Shown here piece after piece: positions 1,986 through 12,785 of a DNA stretch of 36,490 nt; the first letter of the stretch is position 1; each line of letters starts with the position of its first letter. The translations under genes were made by a program, and so were the position numbers. The notes beneath the pieces were generated by a model. That model saw nothing but the letters and a program-made list of their open reading frames with translations, was not told the origin of the DNA and searched no databases. Source of the stretch: Verrucomicrobiota bacterium (GTDB taxonomy: Bacteria; Verrucomicrobiota; Verrucomicrobiia; Opitutales; Opitutaceae); contig JAUVVA010000028.1 in NCBI GenBank assembly GCA_030604905.1, positions 1-36,490 on the forward strand, written 5' to 3'.

Positions 1986-4900
1986 TCAGGGCGCGGGCCG
2001 GGCGCCAGGCTGGTGCAGGCGGAAGCGCTCGGTGCTGGGGCCGGCGGTGGAGCCGGCGGGCGCGGGGATAATGGCAAGCCCTTCGGCGGTGACGGTGCCG
2101 GCGGGGAGGAATTGGCCGTAGTCCGCGCGGGAAGGCACGAGCATGACACCGAGGAGGTTCACTCTGCGCCCATCGCTCAGCACGAGGGATCCGGTGAGGG
2201 CTCCGGTCCGCTCGTTCAGGGCGAGCCGGGACTGGGTGGGATCCACGGACGCGGCGGAGGTGAAGGTGAGGTTGGAGAAGTTGAGGCGGAGGCTGGCCGG
2301 GACGTTCGGGGGGCCGGCGACGGCGTTGGAGAGCACCGGGCCGTCGGTGGCGAGACCGATGGTGGCGGTGGCGGAGGAACCCGTGCCGGTGAAGAGCAGA
2401 CCTAGGTTCGTGCCATTGAAAAAGATCCAGGGTTGGACGAGCAGATCGAGGCCGAGGGGCCCGAAGCCGGCCCGGTATCCAGCCGGGCTGGTCACGCCTT
2501 CGGGGCGCGACCAGTAGGTCTCTCCGCCCGCGCCGGCGGCCAGTGCGTAGCGGGTGAAGGTGGTTCCGTTGGGGGCAAAAACCGTGGTGGGCGTGAGGCG
2601 GAAGTCGGAGGAGATCACGGCACCGGCGCGCGCACCATAGGGACGGGCGAAGAGGCGGTAGCTGCCATCGGTCGCGCTGGGCAGGGAGGCCGTGAAGGGG
2701 GCGCCGTCAGGGAGCCGGCCGCGGATGATCAGGCGGCCGCTAGCGTCGACGGGGGCCGTGGCAAAGCCGCTGCCGGCGGGAAGGGCGGCGGCGTCCTCGC
2801 CGGGCTCAGGCTCATGGAGCGGCTCCGGTTGGGTGAGCGCGAGGGAGTAGGAAGCGACCCTCGCCCAAGGCGCAGGATTGCCTGGTGAGAAAGTGGAGAG
2901 GCGCTTGCCGACGGTGCTGCCCGCGAGTTCGATCGGCTCCGCTCCCGGCCCATCAAGGGCGGAGAGGGAGACGGAGAGCACGCCGCCCGCGCTGATGCTG
3001 AAATTGGCCAGGCGATAGAGGCGCCCGGAGGGAGTGCCGGGGCGTCGGATGTCGATCGGGTTGGCGAGGCTGAGAACGCCGGAGGGAGAGCGAACCACGT
3101 TGCCGCGGAAGGGCAGCGGGGAGGACTCGACGGTGGTGCTGAGGGTGCCGGTGAAGGCTCCGTTGGCGGAGATGGTGAGCACCAGTTTGGCGTGCGGGGG
3201 GCTATCCTCGTCGGGGAGCAGGAGCGCTTCGAAGCCACCGGCGTTGTTGCCGGTCAGGGCTCGGACTTCGATGTAGTGGGCGCGGGTGCCGACCACCACG
3301 CCGTCCTGGCGGGTGGTGATGGTGATGCGGTAGAGGCCGGGGCGAGCGTTCGGGATGCCGGCGATCGCCCCCGACACGGGGTCGATGGTGAGGCCGCGGG
3401 GGAGTCCGGCGGCGGAGAAGCTGCGGCCTTCCGCGGGCGCGATCCCGGGGAGCACATGGCTCTCGGCCGTCACCAGGTTGTAGTTCTGAGTGACGACGCG
3501 GAGGCGGCTGGCGGAGGAGGTGGCGGAGCCGAGCGCGGGCACGGTGATGATGCAGCGGTAACGATCCTCATCGAGGTCGAGGGCGGCGAGTTGCGCGGTC
3601 ACATCGGCGCCACCGAGGTTGATGGTGAGGGTGCGCGTGTGGACGCCGGTGTAGCGGGTGGGGTTGGCCTCGGTGGAGTTGGATAGGTTTACCCAAGCGT
3701 CACGGGGAGCTCCAGCGGGGAGGCGTTGCCACTGGTAGCTCACCGGCGTGTTGGCGGCGGTGGGGCGCGCGGTGACGGAGAGGCTGGCGTTGCCGCCGAG
3801 GTGTCCGACCACCAAGGCGGGGGGCTGGGCGGAGAAGCCGACGCGGAGGGTGGTGATGCGGAGGGTGGTGGCGGTGCTCGCCGCGGATTGGGTGCCGAGG
3901 CCACGGTCATGACGGATCACGCAGCGATATTGCGAGCGGTCGAGGGCGAGGGTGGCGGCGGTGGAAATGCCGGTGCCGCTGGCGGGCGTGGTGCCGTTGA
4001 GGCGAATCGTAAGCGTGGGGCTGTCGACACCGGAATAGGGGCTGAGGACGGCGGGCTGGGCGGGGTCGTCGCCTTGGGCGGGGATGGCGGCGCGGGCGTT
4101 GACCAGCGGCTCCCAGACGGTGGAGCCGGGCGCGCGGCGCTCCCATTGATAGGTGGCGTAGGGCAGGGTCTCCGGCGTGGCGCGGGCGGTGAGCGAGATG
4201 GTGGACCCGAGGGCGGCGGTGGTGGTCGCGGGCAGTCGGTCGCGGAACGCGAGCGACGTGGTGACGGTGAAGGTGGTCGGCCGGCTTTCGAGGCGGGGCG
4301 CGTCAAAATCGGGCGATCCGCTCACGACGTAGCGGAATTGGGAGCCGGAGAGCGCGAAGCTTTCGGCGGATTCGGGAGTGGTCTCTCCGTAGAGGTAGAT
4401 TTGGAGATTCCGGGTGTTGGTGCCGACAAAGGGCGTAAACTCCTCGAAGCTGTCTTCGACGAGGTCTTCCCAGTCGGCGGTGGGCGAGCTGCGTCGCTGC
4501 CATTTGATGTAGAAGGGCCATCCCGTCGCCTCGGCCCTAAGGGTGGCGATGGTGCCGAGGCGGGCGGTGGCGGTGGTGGGAGGGGCTTTTACGATGGCGG
4601 GCGGGCCCAGCTTGGTGGTGGTGATGACGTGGTCCCAATGATGCCCGGAGGGCACCTGGGCGCGGACAGTGACTTGGGAACGGCCGCCGAAGCGGGTGGG
4701 GCGGAGCGTGAGCGCGCCGCCGGAAGAGACGGTGGCGCTGAGCGCGGCGGGATTGGTGTTCTCGTGGATCGAGTAAACGATGCTGGGCGTGCGGATGCCG
4801 GCCGGCACGGCGGAAGCGGGAACCTCGCGGAAGGTCCTCACGTTGATGAACTGCGAGAGGGCGGGACTGCCCTGTCCGTTGTAGCCGCGGAGCGGGAGCT

Positions 4901-5645
4901 CGTTGAAGGGGGGATTGAAGCCCCACGTGGGCAGGGCGCCGATGGCGTCGGCCACGCGGATGCCATTCCCGAGGATGCGGGCAAACACGACGTAGCCCCC
5001 GGTGTTGTCCGTGCCGAAAACCTGGCTGTTGTCGGCGAGGTTGATAAACCACTGGTTCGTCGCGGAGTCCGGGTCGGCGGTGCGCGCCATCGCGAGCGTG
5101 CCCCGGGTGTTGGCGGCGAGGAACTGGTTTTTGAGGGGCGGTTTCGGGGCGACGTCGACGATCTCGAGCCCGGGCTGCACCTTGAATCCGCCGGATTGAA
5201 TGATGGAAAAGTTCGGCCCGACCGAGGCGCGGTGAAAGAAGACTCCGTCAAAGGTGTTGGGGGATGCGTCCGCCGCGCTGCCGGTCGCCAGGTAGGAGCG
5301 AATCCGGTTAACGGTCGCGTTGGCTGGCGTCACGACGCCGCCGTTCTCAAGGGTGGCTCCGTTGACGAATTCGATGAAGATGTCGCCGAGCGTCGTCGTC
5401 AGGCGCGCGTAGATTCCCGTGGCCGAGGGCACTTCTAACGCCGGGCCGAACTGGATCGCAGGGGGCGCGGGGGTGGCGTCGAAATCGATCGTGCCGGGAA
5501 AGGTGAAGCCCTCCTTGAGCACGGGGCCGTTGACGACGATGCCGGGGTTGTTTTCCGCGGCGAGGCGAGCGGCGAAGGTGGACGTGATGAAGAGGATGGC
5601 GGCGCAGATCAGGCGGACGCCGAAGCGGCTGGGGAGGGAATTCAC
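1986..5645 (-). CDS. Giant secreted cyclophilin-type PPIase with Ig-like domains
   Basis: The protein has about 1219 residues. A signal peptide (RFGVRLICAAILFITSTFAARLAA) leads into a cyclophilin domain at about residues 78-260. Its landmarks are FFHR (the catalytic-Arg motif), IIQSGGF, TRGTLAMAR, NQWFINL and VVFARILGNG. Several Ig-like segments follow, each with a YQWERR or YQWQRL core, then a putative-Ig module (LPRGLTIDPVSGAIAGIP) and a C-terminal region with repeats of the FTGTL / GSLVLSDGRRVNLLGV type. Cyclophilins isomerise prolyl peptide bonds; the Ig chain suggests a cell-surface or matrix role (inference). I took the GTG at 5645 because it sits just before the signal peptide; a TTG at 5711 in the same frame would add 22 poorly signal-like residues. 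There is no membrane anchor or PEP-CTERM tail. Confidence 0.85.
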   Translation of the reverse strand: MNSLPSRFGVRLICAAILFITSTFAARLAAENNPGIVVNGPVLKEGFTFPGTIDFDATPAPPAIQFGPALEVPSATGIYARLTTTLGDIFIEFVNGATLENGGVVTPANATVNRIRSYLATGSAADASPNTFDGVFFHRASVGPNFSIIQSGGFKVQPGLEIVDVAPKPPLKNQFLAANTRGTLAMARTADPDSATNQWFINLADNSQVFGTDNTGGYVVFARILGNGIRVADAIGALPTWGFNPPFNELPLRGYNGQGSPALSQFINVRTFREVPASAVPAGIRTPSIVYSIHENTNPAALSATVSSGGALTLRPTRFGGRSQVTVRAQVPSGHHWDHVITTTKLGPPAIVKAPPTTATARLGTIATLRAEATGWPFYIKWQRRSSPTADWEDLVEDSFEEFTPFVGTNTRNLQIYLYGETTPESAESFALSGSQFRYVVSGSPDFDAPRLESRPTTFTVTTSLAFRDRLPATTTAALGSTISLTARATPETLPYATYQWERRAPGSTVWEPLVNARAAIPAQGDDPAQPAVLSPYSGVDSPTLTIRLNGTTPASGTGISTAATLALDRSQYRCVIRHDRGLGTQSAASTATTLRITTLRVGFSAQPPALVVGHLGGNASLSVTARPTAANTPVSYQWQRLPAGAPRDAWVNLSNSTEANPTRYTGVHTRTLTINLGGADVTAQLAALDLDEDRYRCIITVPALGSATSSASRLRVVTQNYNLVTAESHVLPGIAPAEGRSFSAAGLPRGLTIDPVSGAIAGIPNARPGLYRITITTRQDGVVVGTRAHYIEVRALTGNNAGGFEALLLPDEDSPPHAKLVLTISANGAFTGTLSTTVESSPLPFRGNVVRSPSGVLSLANPIDIRRPGTPSGRLYRLANFSISAGGVLSVSLSALDGPGAEPIELAGSTVGKRLSTFSPGNPAPWARVASYSLALTQPEPLHEPEPGEDAAALPAGSGFATAPVDASGRLIIRGRLPDGAPFTASLPSATDGSYRLFARPYGARAGAVISSDFRLTPTTVFAPNGTTFTRYALAAGAGGETYWSRPEGVTSPAGYRAGFGPLGLDLLVQPWIFFNGTNLGLLFTGTGSSATATIGLATDGPVLSNAVAGPPNVPASLRLNFSNLTFTSAASVDPTQSRLALNERTGALTGSLVLSDGRRVNLLGVMLVPSRADYGQFLPAGTVTAEGLAIIPAPAGSTAGPSTERFRLHQPGARPAP

Positions 5646-5732
5646 GGGCGAAAGCGGGGAAGTGTGCAGGCCGGGCGGGCTGGGGCCACGCCAAAAGCAG
5701 CTATCAGGCAAGGGAGGAGCGCGGCGCGGCTT

Positions 5733-6209
5733 TCACTTTTTCGAGACGAAAAGCGGGGCGAGGTCGGGGTCGTCGCGGGCGATGTCGCGCCAAGTCTTGT
5801 CGCGAGCGATGGCGACCGCGAGGAGACGTGTGGCCTCGGCGGTATCGCCGAGCAGGCAGGCGTAGCAGGCGAGGTTGTAGGGGACGAGCGGGCTGGGGTC
5901 CTTGATCAGGCGGGCGCCGGCGAGGAGGGTTTCCTGGGCCTCGGAGATTTTCTCGCGCTCGCGGAGGGCGTAGGCCCAGGCGATCCAAGGGCGCTCGAGG
6001 CTGGCGTCGTGTCCCACCAGCTCGGGAGCGATCTGGATGACTTCGTCCCAAGTCTCGTCCGCCATCGCGATCTCGAGGCGAACCGCCAGGGCCGGCGTGG
6101 CGCAGAGGACTTCCGGAGGCAGGGCGGCAAGCTCTTCGCGAGCCTCGGCGACAAGTCCGAGCTGGAGATAGCCCAATGCGTAGGAAAGGTGGGTTTCCGG
6201 CGGGATCAC
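5733..6209 (-). CDS. Small tetratricopeptide-repeat-like protein
   Basis: The protein has about 158 residues and consists of TPR-like helical pairs: LSYALGYLQLGLVAEAREEL near the N-terminus, PWIAWAYALREREKISEAQE in the middle, and VPYNLACYACLLGDTAEATR at the end, followed by an acidic C-terminal tail. TPR domains are protein-protein scaffolds; no enzymatic motif is present. It lacks an obvious signal peptide. The start is uncertain: the frame is open to a GTG at 6266, but the first 19 residues there look non-coding, so I use the GTG at 6209. It is followed 87 bases later by the cyclophilin-Ig gene on the same strand and is divergent from the Verru_Chthon A gene. Confidence 0.75.
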   Translation of the reverse strand: MIPPETHLSYALGYLQLGLVAEAREELAALPPEVLCATPALAVRLEIAMADETWDEVIQIAPELVGHDASLERPWIAWAYALREREKISEAQETLLAGARLIKDPSPLVPYNLACYACLLGDTAEATRLLAVAIARDKTWRDIARDDPDLAPLFVSKK

Positions 6210-6444
6210 GGGAGGAGAGCAGGGAGAGTGGCGGGAGCGGCGGTCGGACGCGCGCAGAAAATGCACGTATCGAGGTTCCCCGGGGCGCGGCGCACGCGGC
6301 TGTGCGGGGCCGCTCGCGGGCGGCGAGGCGGCTCGCTTTCCTCCGTGCTACGGAATGAACGGCGATCCCTTTGCGGGGGCAGATTTGGGGGCCGAAGGTC
6401 ACAAAGTCCCCCTCTTTCCGCGTCTCCCCGACCGCCCCCGAATA

Positions 6445-9400
6445 ATGCGTTTTCCTCGTCCGCGCCGCGCCCGCGGCTTTGCCCTTATTGTCACCATCGT
6501 GCTGGTGGCCTTCCTCGTGCTTATCTTGGTGGGCTTGGCGACCTTCACGCGCGTGGAGACTCAGGTGGCGAGCAACACCCAGCAGCTTTCGCAGGCGCGG
6601 CAAAACGCGCTCATGGCGCTCAACCTCGCCATCGGCGAACTGCAACGCACGGCCGGGCCCGACCAGCGGGTTACCGCGCCCTCCAATCTCGCGCCCGCCG
6701 CCCTCGCCAGCGGAGTCGGCAGTAGCGATGAGCAGCCGTTCATCACCGGCGTGTGGCGGCACGAGGCCGGCACCGCCACCGACCTGCCGACGCGGGCCTA
6801 CTCGCCGCGCCTGGTGAGCTGGCTGGTCAGCGGAAACGAGAACATGGCCGAAACCGCCGCTCCGCCGGTCACCCCCGCCTCGATCGCCGCCCTGCCCGTG
6901 CCCGCCGCCGGCAACGACGTGGTGTGGCTCGTGAACACCAACACGGTGGAGCAAAGCGGCACGATCTCCGCCGCCAATCCCGACAGGCGCATCCGCCTCA
7001 ACACGACGCCGATTCGCGCCGCCGCCGGCTCGGTGCCGGGCTTTGACGCCACGGGGCCCGATCCCACCATCGGCCACTACGCCTGGTGGGTCGGCGACGA
7101 GGGCGTGAAGGCGCGGCTTGATCTCATCGATCCCTATGCCGCCCAAGGCCAGCTCCTGAATCGCACCGGCCTCAGCGCGGATGAAACAGCGGCTCGTGTT
7201 TCCTCGCTCCAAAGTGCGAACCCCCGGCTGCTCAACGGCGCCGGAGGCGCCGCGCTCAGCGGATTCCCGGTCAACGATCCCGTTCTGCGCCGACTGGTGA
7301 CCCGCGAGCAGTTGCCCTTCATCGGGACCGGTGCGGTCGCCAACCCGGCGAGTTGGCGTCAAAATTTTCACGGGGTGACGCCTCATTCCTTCGGCCTTCT
7401 CACCGACACCCGCGCCGGCGGCCTGCGCCAAGACATGAGCTACCTTCTGTCGCGCACCACGCTCGGCGCCTTTCGCACCGCCCTCGGCCAATCCTACAAC
7501 CCGATCGTCACCGGCTACAATCCGGGGGCCAACACCTCCAACCAGATTGTTCAGCCCGGAGTAAGCGTGCCCGCTTGGATGCCGGCTTTTCCTTCCGCCG
7601 GCACGCTGCCGCCCGTCGGTCCCACTTGGGAGCAACTCTGGTCCTACTCCCGCATGCCGACGGAGGTCACCGGTCCTGGCACGGGCGTGCTCGAAGCGCG
7701 CACGCAGACACAGACCCGCCACGGCTTTAGTCCGGTGCTGCTCCAAGCAAAGGTGTTTTTCGGTATCCGTCGCGTGCCGACGGGCGTGGACGAAACTTAC
7801 AATCTGCATCTGCACATCTTCCCGGTGTTCGTGCTCGGCAACCCGCACTCGGTCGCGATGCATGGCACCTTCAACATCAACTTCGTGGCGAACAACGCAG
7901 TCCGCTGGCGTGCTCGCCCCGAGCCAGATGCCGCTCCGCCTGACACAGGCTTTGCAGCATTGGGCTTGAGCGACTTAAATAACGTTACTTTTCGCATCGT
8001 TGTCGATGCATCGGATCCACTTCCCGCCGGAGGGGCCCGAGCTTACTCACTGGAAACGGGCCTGAGCGGCAATGGTTGGGATGCGTCCTCCTTCTCCTAT
8101 CTGTTCGCCACCAATGGCGTGTATTTAATGGGCGACTACAGCACCGCGGTGAGCCTGCGGCACGTCATCACGGATGGCGACGGTGTTCCGGTGGTGCGTG
8201 TCGGACCCGATTCCGAGTCTCCCGCGCTCCTGGTCAACGGCGCCTTGCGCGCCTTGGCGATCCTTTGGGACGGATCCCCCTCCGGCCACGAGACCGTGCA
8301 TCAGTTCTACAACAGCGAACTGGCGGTGGACACCGCGGCGGCCTGGGCGTCGCCTCGGATCGGCAACAGCGACGAGATCGCGCGAGGGAACGGATACCAA
8401 CAGAGGCACATCGACCAGTTTGACGGACCGCTGGGCCCGCCGGCGCCTCCAGGAAGCGACAACGTGACCTCGGGCATCTTTGGCGACACCAACATGCGCG
8501 CGACCTATCTGAGGCCTTCGGTCAACACCACGCCTGCAGCTTCCGGCACTGGGTTCAATTCCTCGGATTCTCATTCCCGCTACCCGCTCTTCACCAACGG
8601 CCGATTCTGGCGCAACCACAGTTTCTTCGACGGCGTCAACGACCGCATCACCGTCCGTCCCGACAACAAGACGGTGCCTTGGGTGACCAACTACAAGAAC
8701 ACGGGCGCAGGAGGCCCGCCGCTGATTGACACCAACATCCTGTTCACGATTCCCCGCCAACCGCTGAACTCGATCGCCCAGCTCCAGCATTTCAACGCTT
8801 CGGGCTATCTCCACACCGGCTCGCAAGGCTTCAACATCAGTTTTGGAAGCGTGCCGGCCGTCAACAGCTTCGCGGGTCGCATCGCCGCCGCCGCCGCTTA
8901 CCAAGTCCCTTACCCGATCGGCAACTCCGCCGCGTCAAAGTTCATCGCTCGTGAGGCGTTGGAGCGCGACACGACCTTGGCCGGCGTGTATCGCGACGCA
9001 TCCTATCTCCTCAATTCCGCTCTCTGGGATCGTTTCCACTTTTCGAGTTTCACTTACGCGAGCTCGGATTCGAACGATTTCAACGATCGAAACCTCATCA
9101 CGCGGAACCACCGCCATACACCGTTTCCGAACGCGGGCGCTCCGGTGACTGTTGCCTCGACCACGCCGTCCACCGCGGCGACCCGGCTCGGCGTCGCGGG
9201 CGCTTTCAACGTCAACTCGACCTCGGTCGAGGCGTGGACCGCCTTTTTGGGCGGCATGCTCGGCGTCAGCTTCAGCGACAGCAGCGACGTGGCGATCGCG
9301 CCGTTTCCTCGCTCGCTCGCGCATACGAGCGGCAGCGCCAACGCCGGCGGCGGCGTGTCCGACAACGCGTGGGCCGGGCACCGGCCGCTCACCCGGGCGG

Positions 9401-9975
9401 AGTTGGAAACGCTTGCCACCGAGATCGTCGAGCAGGTGAAGGCCCGCGGACCCTTCCTCTCGCTCGCCGATTTCGTGAACCGCCGCCTCATCGCGGCCGC
9501 CGACGACGCCGCCGCGCCCGCGGCGGGCGCGAGAGATCTGCGCGTCGGCCTCGGTGGGGTCCTGCACCAAGCCATCCGGAGCGCCAATTTGAACGGTGTC
9601 ACCAACGCGCGGTATTCCCCGGCTCCGCCCAACCGCAGCGGCAACGTCGCCGATCCCGCGCATCTCCAGCCGCACCGCATCGTGGACTTCCCGGGCTGGG
9701 TGACCCAAGCCGATCTGCTGCAGTCCATCGGGCCCGCGCTCAGCGCGCGTTCCGACACCTTCGTGATTCGCACCTATGGCGATGTCCGCAACCCCGCGAC
9801 CGGCGAGATCGAGGGCAGAGCCTGGTGCGAGGCCGTCGTGCAACGTCGGATCGACTATGTGAACCCCGCCGATGCCGCCGACGCCAGTCTCGCCTCGCTG
9901 AGCCAGGAGAGTCGGGACTTTGGCCGACGTTTTGAGATCATCTCCTTCCGCTGGCTCGACCAAAACAGCTTATGA
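6445..9975 (+). CDS. Verru_Chthon cassette protein A-like giant pseudopilin-type protein
   Basis: The protein has 1176 residues. The N-terminus reads MRFPRPRRARG then FALIVTIVLVAFLVLILVGLATF, a type IV prepilin-like signal: basic leader, Gly11-Phe12 processing site and hydrophobic helix. It lacks Glu at mature position 5, like minor pseudopilin GspK. Next comes a conserved segment, QNALMALNLAIGELQRTAGPDQRVTAPS (about 51-78). Near the C-terminus are WAGHRPLTRAELETLATEIV, KARGPFLSLADFVNRRL and a final FGRRFEIISFRWLDQ. These match my knowledge of the Verru_Chthon cassette protein A family, whose function is unknown. In the described cassettes three prepilin-like partners (B, C, D) accompany A; none is visible here. 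I chose the ATG at 6445 because it places the prepilin leader correctly. Its stop overlaps the next start by 4 bases. Confidence 0.85.
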   Translation: MRFPRPRRARGFALIVTIVLVAFLVLILVGLATFTRVETQVASNTQQLSQARQNALMALNLAIGELQRTAGPDQRVTAPSNLAPAALASGVGSSDEQPFITGVWRHEAGTATDLPTRAYSPRLVSWLVSGNENMAETAAPPVTPASIAALPVPAAGNDVVWLVNTNTVEQSGTISAANPDRRIRLNTTPIRAAAGSVPGFDATGPDPTIGHYAWWVGDEGVKARLDLIDPYAAQGQLLNRTGLSADETAARVSSLQSANPRLLNGAGGAALSGFPVNDPVLRRLVTREQLPFIGTGAVANPASWRQNFHGVTPHSFGLLTDTRAGGLRQDMSYLLSRTTLGAFRTALGQSYNPIVTGYNPGANTSNQIVQPGVSVPAWMPAFPSAGTLPPVGPTWEQLWSYSRMPTEVTGPGTGVLEARTQTQTRHGFSPVLLQAKVFFGIRRVPTGVDETYNLHLHIFPVFVLGNPHSVAMHGTFNINFVANNAVRWRARPEPDAAPPDTGFAALGLSDLNNVTFRIVVDASDPLPAGGARAYSLETGLSGNGWDASSFSYLFATNGVYLMGDYSTAVSLRHVITDGDGVPVVRVGPDSESPALLVNGALRALAILWDGSPSGHETVHQFYNSELAVDTAAAWASPRIGNSDEIARGNGYQQRHIDQFDGPLGPPAPPGSDNVTSGIFGDTNMRATYLRPSVNTTPAASGTGFNSSDSHSRYPLFTNGRFWRNHSFFDGVNDRITVRPDNKTVPWVTNYKNTGAGGPPLIDTNILFTIPRQPLNSIAQLQHFNASGYLHTGSQGFNISFGSVPAVNSFAGRIAAAAAYQVPYPIGNSAASKFIAREALERDTTLAGVYRDASYLLNSALWDRFHFSSFTYASSDSNDFNDRNLITRNHRHTPFPNAGAPVTVASTTPSTAATRLGVAGAFNVNSTSVEAWTAFLGGMLGVSFSDSSDVAIAPFPRSLAHTSGSANAGGGVSDNAWAGHRPLTRAELETLATEIVEQVKARGPFLSLADFVNRRLIAAADDAAAPAAGARDLRVGLGGVLHQAIRSANLNGVTNARYSPAPPNRSGNVADPAHLQPHRIVDFPGWVTQADLLQSIGPALSARSDTFVIRTYGDVRNPATGEIEGRAWCEAVVQRRIDYVNPADAADASLASLSQESRDFGRRFEIISFRWLDQNSL

Positions 9976-10766
9976 GCCTCCGTTCCGTTCCCTTCTTCTT
10001 GGTCCTTCTTCTCCTTGTGCGCGGGCCGCTGCTCGCGAGTCCCGAGCAGCCAACGCCGTTCCGGGTAAACGCGTTCAGCTACGAGGTGCCTTTCGCCGGT
10101 CTGCATGTGTTGCGAGGCGTGGAGCATCTGCCGATCGACGTGCAGCCCTTCACGCCGGGACGGCACCTCGAGTTGCCCGGCACGTCCCGGTCGCTTGAAT
10201 TTTTCCTCGATGCCAAGGCACCCCGGGAAGCCGCCGCCGCGCCTGCGGAAGGGGCTGCTCCCGGCGCTCCGCCCCATGTGCCGGAGTGGCGCAAGGTGGC
10301 CACGGTGCAACTGCCGGCCACCGGACGGGATTTCACCTTGGTTTTCGTCCCGCAGCAGGGGCAAGCGGAGCCCTTCCGCGTGGTCACGATCGACAATTCA
10401 GCGGACGCCTTTCCGGCGGGGACGATCCGGCTGATAAACTTCAGCCCGCATCCGGTCGCTTTGCAGCTTGGTGCCGAGCAATCCACTCTCGCGCCCGGGG
10501 CGCAGATGCTGAAGACGCCGCAGCTCGACGACAAGTTCAGGTCCTATCTCCAGGTCGCCTATAGTGTAGGGGGCCAGTGGCAGGTCTTTCATCAAGGGCC
10601 GCTATCCCTGCTGCCCGAGCGTCGGGCCACGGTGATCATCACCTACTCGTCGACCTACTTGCACATGGTCGGCTCCGAGCGTCCGCGCGGGCGTGATGGG
10701 AGGATCGCGCCGGAGATGCTGACGATCCAGTGGGTGGACCGCCCGCGGGTGGAACGACGTGGATAG
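9972..10766 (+). CDS. Secreted protein of unknown function coupled to the Verru_Chthon A gene
   Basis: The protein has 264 residues. A signal peptide (MSLRSVPFFLVLLLLVRGPLLAS) is followed by an extracytoplasmic region without Cys pairs or catalytic motifs that I recognise. Residues about 24-75 carry FRVNAFSYEVPFAGLHVLRGVEHL. After an Ala/Pro-rich linker (about 85-100) comes a beta-rich module with FTLVFVPQ, IRLINFSPHPVALQLG and STLAPGAQML. This resembles the extracellular beta-sandwich logic of DUF4397-like domains, but only loosely. The ATG overlaps the stop of the upstream gene (ATGA), which implies translational coupling and probably a stoichiometric partnership with the giant pseudopilin-like protein. 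The function is unknown. Confidence 0.85.
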   Translation: MSLRSVPFFLVLLLLVRGPLLASPEQPTPFRVNAFSYEVPFAGLHVLRGVEHLPIDVQPFTPGRHLELPGTSRSLEFFLDAKAPREAAAAPAEGAAPGAPPHVPEWRKVATVQLPATGRDFTLVFVPQQGQAEPFRVVTIDNSADAFPAGTIRLINFSPHPVALQLGAEQSTLAPGAQMLKTPQLDDKFRSYLQVAYSVGGQWQVFHQGPLSLLPERRATVIITYSSTYLHMVGSERPRGRDGRIAPEMLTIQWVDRPRVERRG

Positions 10767-11144: not shown

Positions 11145-12785
11145 TTAGCGACGGCGGCGGCGCGAGGCGGCGAAGCCGAGGGCGCCAAGGCCGGCGAGCG
11201 CGGCGAAGGCCGAGGGCTCGGGGATCACTTGGGCCGTGAGAATGCCGGTGGCGACATCGAGGCTGAAGTTGTAGTTGTTGCTGGAGAAGGCGCTGATGTC
11301 GCCGTAACTGCCGCTGAAGCCGGAGCCGGAGAGATTCACGGAGGTGAAGGTGCCGGAGACGGTCGCATCCCAGAGGTTCCAGCTGCGCTCGTTGCCGAGA
11401 TTCGCGGTGGTAAAGACAAGCTCGAGGATCGAGTTGCTCAGCGTCAGCGAGGGGGCGACGAGACGGGCAGCCGTGATGTCGGCCGCGCCGAGGTCGAAGC
11501 GCAGGTCGCCGTTGGTGGAGTTGAGGCCGCGGCTGAAGGACAGCGCGCCGTCCCGGATGTGGATCACGCCGGTGTTGGCGTTGGTGCCGGAGGCTGCGGA
11601 TTGGATCTCGCTGATGCCCGCTCCGGATTTCACCAGAAGACCATCATTGGTGAAGATCGTATCCTTGGAGGAGTTTCCGATGCGGCTGGCATCGTTGAGG
11701 TTGATCACTCCGGTGCTCGTGTTGGTGACGACGAAAGACGCGAACTGCGCGGTGAGGTTGGTAAACTGGACAAACTCGGCGCGGCTGGTGCCGTGGAGGT
11801 TGATTGTGCCGCTGTTGGAGATGGCAGGAGCGTCGGCGGATCCCGTAAAGGCGGAGTTGGTGCGGTGGGTGAGCACCAGGCGACCGTTGCTGGAAGCATC
11901 GCCGGAGACGCCGAGGTTGATCGTGGCGCCGGCCTCGTTTGATACGAGGGAGGTCTTGCTGCCGTTCGAGTTGCTGCGTGAGGCGAGTTGGAGGGTGGAG
12001 CCGTTACCGATGTTGACCGTGCCGCCGCTGCTGTTGGTCAGCGTAGCTGCGCCGTTGGAGGTCGAAGCGGTGTTGAGTGTTCCGATGGTCGCCACGTTGG
12101 TGACGTTTATCGTGCCGGCGTTGGTCACGACCGTGTCGTAGCGGCGTTCTTGAGTGCCAAAGCCGCCGATCACCGCACCGCCGTCGCTGAGGGAGATCGC
12201 ACCGCTGGCCGATCCCATGTTGAGAACACCGAAGTTCTGGAAAGAGAGGTCACGGTTGGCGGCGGTCTGGCTACGCGCGATGAATCCGGCCGCGTTTCCG
12301 CTGCTCGGACCGTTGGTGAGATTGAAGGTGCCTCGGTTGATCAAACCCACATTCTCCGCGCCGCCTGCGCCTAAAATGATGCGACCGTCGCCGGAAAGCG
12401 TGGTGACCACCTGATCCACCCCGACTCCGCTCCCCAGATTCGTCTCAAAGGCTGTTCCCGCGGCGGATAGGGTGAGGGAGTTTTGAAGCGAAAAGGTGTT
12501 GGTGACGCCCGGCGTGCTGGTCGTCTGGTTGAAGGTGACCGTGTTGGCGACGGCATTGGTGCCGGAAGAGGTAACCGTGCGTGAGCCGGACGTGACGTCG
12601 TTTAAGCGAATGTTGTTGCCGGTTCCGGGCACGCTGTTTGTGGACCAGTTGCTGGCGGTGTTCCAGAGGCCGGAGGCGTTCGAGTCGCCGTTGCCGGTCC
12701 AGATGGTCTGGGCGCTGGCGGAGACAGCAACGAGAGACATGGCGGCCAGGAGGCGCGCCGCGTGGCGGGTGGGGGTGGGGTTCAT
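11145..12785 (-). CDS. PEP-CTERM sorting-domain protein with beta-helix-like repeats
   Basis: The protein has 546 residues. A Sec signal peptide (AARLLAAMSLVAVSASAQ) is followed by TIWTGNGDSNASGLWNTASNW, a segment typical of autotransporter-like passenger proteins. The middle is low in charge and rich in Asn, Gly, Ser and Thr, with recurring units such as NSGTINLHGTSRAEF, NTGVIHIRDGALSF and STGVINLNDASRIGN; this fits a right-handed beta-helix. The C-terminus is a complete PEP-CTERM signal: VIPEPSAFAALAGLGALGFA (520-539), then ASRRRRR. In this system an exosortase recognises PEP, processes the tail and sends the protein to the surface or the exopolysaccharide matrix. No exosortase gene is in the window. 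The ATG at 12785 has no evident ribosome binding site. Confidence 0.92.
   Translation of the reverse strand: MNPTPTRHAARLLAAMSLVAVSASAQTIWTGNGDSNASGLWNTASNWSTNSVPGTGNNIRLNDVTSGSRTVTSSGTNAVANTVTFNQTTSTPGVTNTFSLQNSLTLSAAGTAFETNLGSGVGVDQVVTTLSGDGRIILGAGGAENVGLINRGTFNLTNGPSSGNAAGFIARSQTAANRDLSFQNFGVLNMGSASGAISLSDGGAVIGGFGTQERRYDTVVTNAGTINVTNVATIGTLNTASTSNGAATLTNSSGGTVNIGNGSTLQLASRSNSNGSKTSLVSNEAGATINLGVSGDASSNGRLVLTHRTNSAFTGSADAPAISNSGTINLHGTSRAEFVQFTNLTAQFASFVVTNTSTGVINLNDASRIGNSSKDTIFTNDGLLVKSGAGISEIQSAASGTNANTGVIHIRDGALSFSRGLNSTNGDLRFDLGAADITAARLVAPSLTLSNSILELVFTTANLGNERSWNLWDATVSGTFTSVNLSGSGFSGSYGDISAFSSNNYNFSLDVATGILTAQVIPEPSAFAALAGLGALGFAASRRRRR

Follow-up and report, generated by a model that had tools for sequence, protein, structure and literature searches.

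A giant GspK-like pseudopilin and its beta-sandwich partner as candidate exchangeable tip modules of a shared pseudopilus in Verrucomicrobiota

What role could a giant pseudopilin-like protein have when its gene is coupled to that of a small secreted protein? Such a pair, here called A and the partner, lies on the forward strand of a 36,490-nucleotide stretch of DNA from a Verrucomicrobiota bacterium (the window). An earlier note on this DNA had read the pair as a reduced two-gene version of the Verru_Chthon cassette, in which the partner replaces the B, C, and D genes and the product perhaps forms a filament tip. The features of the pair are as follows.

6445..9975, + strand: A gene, encoding a giant minor pseudopilin of 1176 aa, GspK-like by its predicted fold (start ATG at 6445 within the open reading frame 6355-9975)
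6445..6477, + strand: prepilin-type leader MRFPRPRRARG, A residues 1-11 (sequence reading; cleavage predicted)
6478..6654, + strand: mature N-terminal helix, A residues 12-70, with Val at position 5 (DSSP; mean pairwise identity 0.47, n=60)
7735..8424, + strand: variable inserted beta-rich region, A residues 431-660 (strands in the AlphaFold model; mean pairwise identity 0.20)
8965..9972, + strand: conserved C-terminal part, A residues 841-1176 (identity 0.40-0.43; motifs GAFN.NSTS and SDTF.IR.YG)
9972..9975, + strand: ATGA, the 4 bases that the stop of A shares with the start of the partner
9972..10766, + strand: partner gene, 264 aa, two predicted beta-sandwich domains (open reading frame and AlphaFold model; signal peptide by eye)

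By reading of the sequence, the A leader MRFPRPRRARG is followed by FALIVTIVLVAFLVLILVGLATFTRVE, with Val and not Glu as residue 5 of the mature protein; a prepilin leader without Glu5 is also a feature of GspK. The earlier note's description of a 1176-residue pseudopilin-like protein without Glu5, joined by a 4-base overlap to a 264-residue secreted partner, was thus confirmed, the signal peptide of the latter being recognized by eye. The pair stands alone, because the flanking genes (a 177-aa gene, the gene of a cyclophilin-Ig protein, and, downstream, that of a 546-aa protein) lie on the opposite strand. The cyclophilin-Ig gene (1986-5711, - strand) encodes a protein of 1241 aa in which a cyclophilin-type peptidyl-prolyl isomerase domain precedes Ig-like domains, and the 546-aa protein (11145-12785, - strand), which has a PEP-CTERM-like tail by reading, is encoded directly downstream of the pair and convergent with it. 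A promoter scan found none, and terminator-like sites numbered 5 vs 3.8 in shuffled sequence. Neither strand of the window has an open reading frame of at least 80 aa with a Glu5 prepilin motif. The lack of B, C, and D that the earlier note had recorded therefore holds for the locus and the window; it does not hold for the genome, where genes with weak B-, C-, and D-like matches occur in an operon elsewhere (C150).

The sequence models placed A only loosely. The NCBIfam GspK model NF037980 matched A with 27.4 bits (cut-off 130) at the N-terminus only, and the NCBIfam Verru_Chthon A model TIGR02600 with 25.1 bits (cut-off 332.3) at residues 11-69 only. When a profile of 69 A-family sequences was compared with a profile of 10 classic Verru_Chthon A proteins, the match was limited to 69 N-terminal columns, and membership of A in the Verru_Chthon A family, as the earlier note had it, was rejected. 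PF03934 (the GspK domain) had no match at any counted A place, and the window A was absent from the 65 matches of the generic prepilin model PF07963 in the same genome. Those 65 matches, many of them open reading frames of about 230-310 aa over scattered contigs, are apparently a second, separate pseudopilin expansion.

The predicted structure was more informative. An AlphaFold model of A from 69 sequences (pLDDT 80.3, pTM 0.87) matched the GspK/XcpX chains with Z 11.7 (3ci0_K and 9a1f_T), 11.2 (5vtm_X), and 10.9 (6utu_C), and the next-best chain after these four entries had Z 3.5. In 3ci0_K, 246 of 280 residues were covered by the model (residues 10 to 1176), and in 9a1f_T, 260 of 295; the model thus contains the greater part of the GspK body, split by long insertions. 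The insert at residues 431-660 gave just weak C2/CBM3-like matches (Z up to 3.5). Foldseek alone found nothing for A at E 0.001, with 3ci0_K (GspK) ranked first at E 0.35, and a sequence-profile search of the PDB with the A profile found nothing. By its modelled fold, A is an oversized GspK-like protein with long inserts in the GspK body, the earlier note having likened it to GspK for its lack of Glu5; being under the NF037980 cut-off and without PF03934, it is GspK-like in looks and outside those models. The large, so far unnamed gene family to which A belongs may thereby be identified. PF03934 did match other open frames, 282 to 1348 aa long, away from the counted A places, and also matched controls such as Corynebacterium glutamicum. 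We took these frames for putative helix-hairpin-helix proteins, so that a divergent plain GspK may also be encoded elsewhere.

The partner had no match to any Pfam or NCBIfam model, in line with the earlier note, which had seen no recognised domain in it. Among 65 partners, NCBIfam gave no match at 0.01, and DUF4397 (PF14344) matched a single one at E 0.0008, the window partner having no match. The partners form a family that no Pfam or NCBIfam model covers. An AlphaFold model from 65 sequences (pLDDT 88.4, pTM 0.81) comprised two beta-sandwich domains at residues about 28-145 and 146-258, the boundary being estimated. The nearest solved folds were the extracellular domains of PepT2 and PepT1 (7pmy_A, Z 13.6, rmsd 3.0, 179 residues aligned; Foldseek E 3.6e-7 against the PepT extracellular domain), and further matches to single domains included HGSNAT, cytolysin domains, and AlgF (6d10, Z 8.3; 6czt, Z 7.6). 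No function follows from the shared PepT-like fold. A sequence-profile search of the PDB found nothing for the partner. The reading of the partner as a fourth pilin was rejected as well, as no pilin model matched and the predicted fold is a beta-sandwich instead.

Is the pair a regular association? Relatives of A were searched in genome_contigs with 14 aligned A proteins as the query, whose patterns favour near relatives, and were found to be encoded in 416 stretches. The best 80 of the 416 were kept and represent 79 loci, whose titles include Opitutaceae, Cerasicoccus, Akkermansiaceae, Verrucomicrobiaceae, one Spartobacteria, and one Kiritimatiellota record. Five of the 79 were cut at or too near the A stop, and the partner directly followed A at 69 of the 74 testable loci, some of the matches being partial. 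Likewise, 12 genomes held 82 A places, a few of them fragments, and 76 of these had the partner behind them. Conversely, the 12 genomes had 77 partner places, of which 76 were preceded by an A match at a distance of 0.5 kb or less and one was a tandem second copy. Regular adjacency, which the earlier note had proposed to check, was therefore borne out, and in these 12 genomes the partner was not found away from A. The window genome itself has nine pairs. With 416 A relatives and the order of A and partner kept, the pair is not due to chance, and members of the A family normally occur in the two-gene form.

The partner was absent behind A at five of the 74 loci, at six of the 82 places in the 12 genomes, and at locus L196 of genome G291. 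At the last, which was read outside the counts (A at 5826-9419, 734 bits), A is followed by genes of 772 and 437 aa, and the opposite strand carries a partner-like frame close to the far end of the stretch. Three of the five partnerless loci (L088, L117, and L118; Opitutia) form one A clade, and L117 and L118 have four pseudopilin genes downstream of the partnerless A. Tandem partner duplicates behind one A were seen at G055:C1:2419588-2420980 and L129:9285-10755. In G126, G108, G116, and G005, some partner matches ran through one stop codon and represent decayed copies or extensions past the gene end.

The source of the other filament parts was sought elsewhere in the genomes. At C150 of the window genome, an operon of five Glu5 pseudopilins is followed by another A and partner. 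The first two pseudopilins matched best to GspG, at 56.6 and 50.2 bits and under the cut-off of 88.85, and the weak matches of the next three include Verru_Chthon D, B, and C. Since this operon combines pseudopilins with A and the partner in the same genome, the partner comes in addition to A; the earlier note's view of it as a substitute for B, C, and D does not hold. In the stretches read, pseudopilins lie upstream of one of the nine A genes of the window genome (the C150 copy) and are not found upstream of the window gene. A profile search found a J/C-like pseudopilin in 16 of 17 genomes, as two genes in G013 and G019 and otherwise as one, and 12 of those 17 genomes had 0-23 A places each. 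In eight genomes (G055, G126, G140, G108, G110, G128, G121, and G136), the core operon ends after J and is followed by unrelated genes; three to five Glu5 pilin genes, and no A, were found beside it within the 15-16 kb read. These eight genomes have 2 to 21 partner places each; one of the scans behind these counts scored at most 19 candidates per genome, and A itself was counted in G055, G126, G140, and G108 only.

Over 141 genomes, 66 had the partner together with a J-like gene, five the partner only, 32 the J-like gene only, and 38 neither (Fisher 4e-10, related genomes being non-independent). The five with a partner match and no J-like match are G005, G008, G044, G120, and G134, of which G005 is 99% complete. 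Positions were further compared in 26 of the 50 single-partner genomes, picked because the places of both genes were available. The partner and the J-like gene lay within 6 kb of each other in 11 of the 26, 10 of which belong to the family of the window genome, and apart in 15, including one with 355 kb between them on the same contig and 14 with different contigs, a separation that contig fragmentation can produce. Several pairs per genome against a single set of the other filament parts suggest one secretion machine wearing exchangeable tips. Seven genomes, each with 8-12 matches to pilus-type ATPases and 3-5 to secretins, offer more than one candidate machine, which counts against this account. 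The genomes with only one of the two genes, the As without a partner, and the low scores of A against the GspK sequence models count against it as well.

A quick tree of 96 A proteins, with SH-aLRT support only, showed operon-linked and solitary As intermixed. The seven operon-linked rows required seven changes on the tree, at least four of them forced by starred branches, and this was no fewer than with shuffled labels. The operon A of the window genome (L052) groups with solitary As; it is 44% identical to L054 of the same genome vs 38% to the operon A of the congener G013, the other five genes of the two operons being 46-56% identical. Distances among A proteins were correlated with those among their partners (r 0.92, 60 pairs, Mantel p 0.001), also within genomes (r 0.88, 34 comparisons). 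By region of A, the correlation with the partner was r 0.91 for the insert at residues 431-660 vs r 0.34 for the N-terminal helix, the latter being lowered by the little variation in the helix. This correlated divergence fits contact between the partner and the insert, and also joint descent of the two genes.

A survey of the genes next to solitary pairs scanned 78 of 90 on the upstream side and 73 of 85 on the downstream side. Operon-linked loci, L117, and L118 were set aside, L055-L057 and L077 were excluded as duplicates, and L074 and L131 (upstream) and L086, L110, L123, and L129 (downstream) were dropped by hand. GH5 was the commonest upstream neighbour family (7 of 78), and GH5 and MotA/ExbB tied downstream (4 of 73 each); other neighbours were GH16, GH1, GH92, sulfatase, and GDSL families. 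For control, 100 of the 124 genes predicted in 16 arbitrary regions were scanned; the 25 of 130 families that were listed do not include GH5, and a single case may be hidden in the rest. Linkage of the pairs to regulators was also considered and is not supported, regulators being not clearly commoner there than in the control, where LacI and Peripla_BP_3 occur too (two each). In one A clade, 11 of the 16 rows had a GH5 gene no more than 6 kb from A, vs 2 of the 80 other rows, in a comparison for which the clade was picked after the tree was seen, the rows are related, the flanks are unequal, and one match is at a contig edge. Both GH5 rows outside the clade belong to a 23-row group around it; the window pair belongs to the same group, and no GH5 gene was found in the window.

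Taken together, the best-supported account is that A and its partner are probably exchangeable tip modules for one shared pseudopilus. A would be the minor pseudopilin at the tip of a type II secretion system (T2SS) pseudopilus, its GspK body enlarged by hundreds of inserted residues. The partner, a small secreted protein of beta-sandwich fold that is produced together with A, may dock on the variable insert at the filament tip, in the periplasm or outside, and the pair would form a self-contained module that can be exchanged for another. The GspG-, H-, I-, and J-like parts would come from the single shared operon elsewhere in the genome, and different modules, several of them near secreted sugar-cleaving enzymes, might let one machine select various cargoes or grip various polysaccharides. 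We infer assembly at the tip, contact between partner and insert, and a role with cargo or glycan. The reduced two-gene Verru_Chthon cassette is thereby superseded by a widespread GspK-like module with a regular partner, and the tip role suspected in the earlier note is kept as probable. A tentative extension, which falls somewhat short of probable, is a combinatorial T2SS in which one shaft carries up to about twenty GspK-plus-partner tips, each matched to an enzyme or polysaccharide; if it is true, one secretion machine would be retargeted by a tip swap.

Cargo recognition by the T2SS is, to our knowledge, still open as to its mechanism. The T2SS tip consists of four minor pseudopilins, which one paper (PMC6211770) calls critical for substrate recognition, and the same paper presents the tip complex as a candidate for recognizing cargo. 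It also reports that milk was still cleared by xcpX mutants of Pseudomonas aeruginosa (PMC6211770); therefore, an intact tip GspK is not always required, which counts against our best explanation.

Among the alternatives, the pairs could form the tips of a type IV-like filament exposed on the cell surface and bind polysaccharide there in the manner of glycan-binding minor pilins, no cargo being secreted through them. The variable insert and the partner are both beta-rich in the models, the CAZyme neighbours agree equally well with glycan contact, and a glycan-binding minor-pilin complex has been described (PMC9934059). We nevertheless regard such an adhesive tip as rather unlikely, as the sole strong folds for A are those of T2SS GspK/XcpX and the first two core-operon pseudopilins match best to GspG, though under the cut-off (56.6 and 50.2 vs 88.85 bits). 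A less probable alternative is that A is a dedicated exporter and the partner its cargo, an inhibitor, or a receptor domain travelling with it. This would suit a protein encoded directly behind A with a signal peptide by inspection and a transporter domain (PepT2) as its closest fold, but the partners have been retained as a family, with a mean identity of about 21%, next to neighbours of many kinds, and they diverge in step with A. Finally, an independent two-gene system with the partner in place of B, C, and D, as the earlier note proposed, is very improbable: although the window has no pilin genes and five genomes have a partner match without a J-like match, the partner is by model matches and predicted fold not a pilin, B-, C-, and D-like genes share one operon of the window genome with A and the partner, and partner and J-like genes co-occur over the 141 genomes.

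Genomes with one J-like gene and up to some twenty tip variants, with one clade near GH5, lend themselves naturally to experiments on tip specificity. Our literature search found nothing on the A-partner family. Exchangeable tips as such are already published for the Tad pilus (PMC12075869), according to the abstract. In the Tad (Kil) pilus of Myxococcus, as in the arrangement proposed here, several tip complexes with variable domains occur on one filament; that abstract, however, concerns a Tad system with four minor pilin complexes that serves predation, and mentions neither GspK nor a beta-sandwich partner (PMC12075869).

Within Opitutales, the isolate Verruconatronum alginivorum likewise has a pseudopilin expansion. 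A 2026 paper (PMC13274419) reports 67 pulG-like pseudopilin homologues in its genome; a pseudopilin gene lies in a cluster for polysaccharide use, which was upregulated on alginate in single proteomes for each condition. The paper calls these genes PulG-like and not GspK-like, and the parts consulted contain no idea of a partner or a shared core (PMC13274419).

For the partner, the likeness to the PepT1/PepT2 extracellular domains extends over both beta-sandwiches (7pmy_A, Z 13.6) and that to AlgF over one domain (6d10, Z 8.3; 6czt, Z 7.6), whereas identity in the aligned rows is 8-15%. Verru_Chthon A (TIGR02600) resembles A in its N-terminal 59-69 residues, its giant size, and its multiple copies within one phylum, but has no profile match to A beyond the helix. 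Only four of 194 genomes drawn across the phylum passed the TIGR02600 cut-off, and the ten loci over the cut-off that were read in those four, on the strand of A only and for open reading frames of at least 100 aa, had Glu5 prepilin genes beside A and no partner match. The closest known relatives by predicted fold are thus GspK, XcpX, and PulK (3ci0_K, 5vtm_X, and 9a1f_T), with which A shares a prepilin-type leader, the lack of Glu5, and the modelled GspK fold and, in its operon-linked copies, the occurrence beside G-, H-, I-, and J-like pseudopilins. Unlike them, A has about four times their length, reaches 27 bits against the 130-bit cut-off of the NCBI GspK model, and is encoded in multiple copies, mostly apart from other pseudopilins and with a regular beta-sandwich partner.
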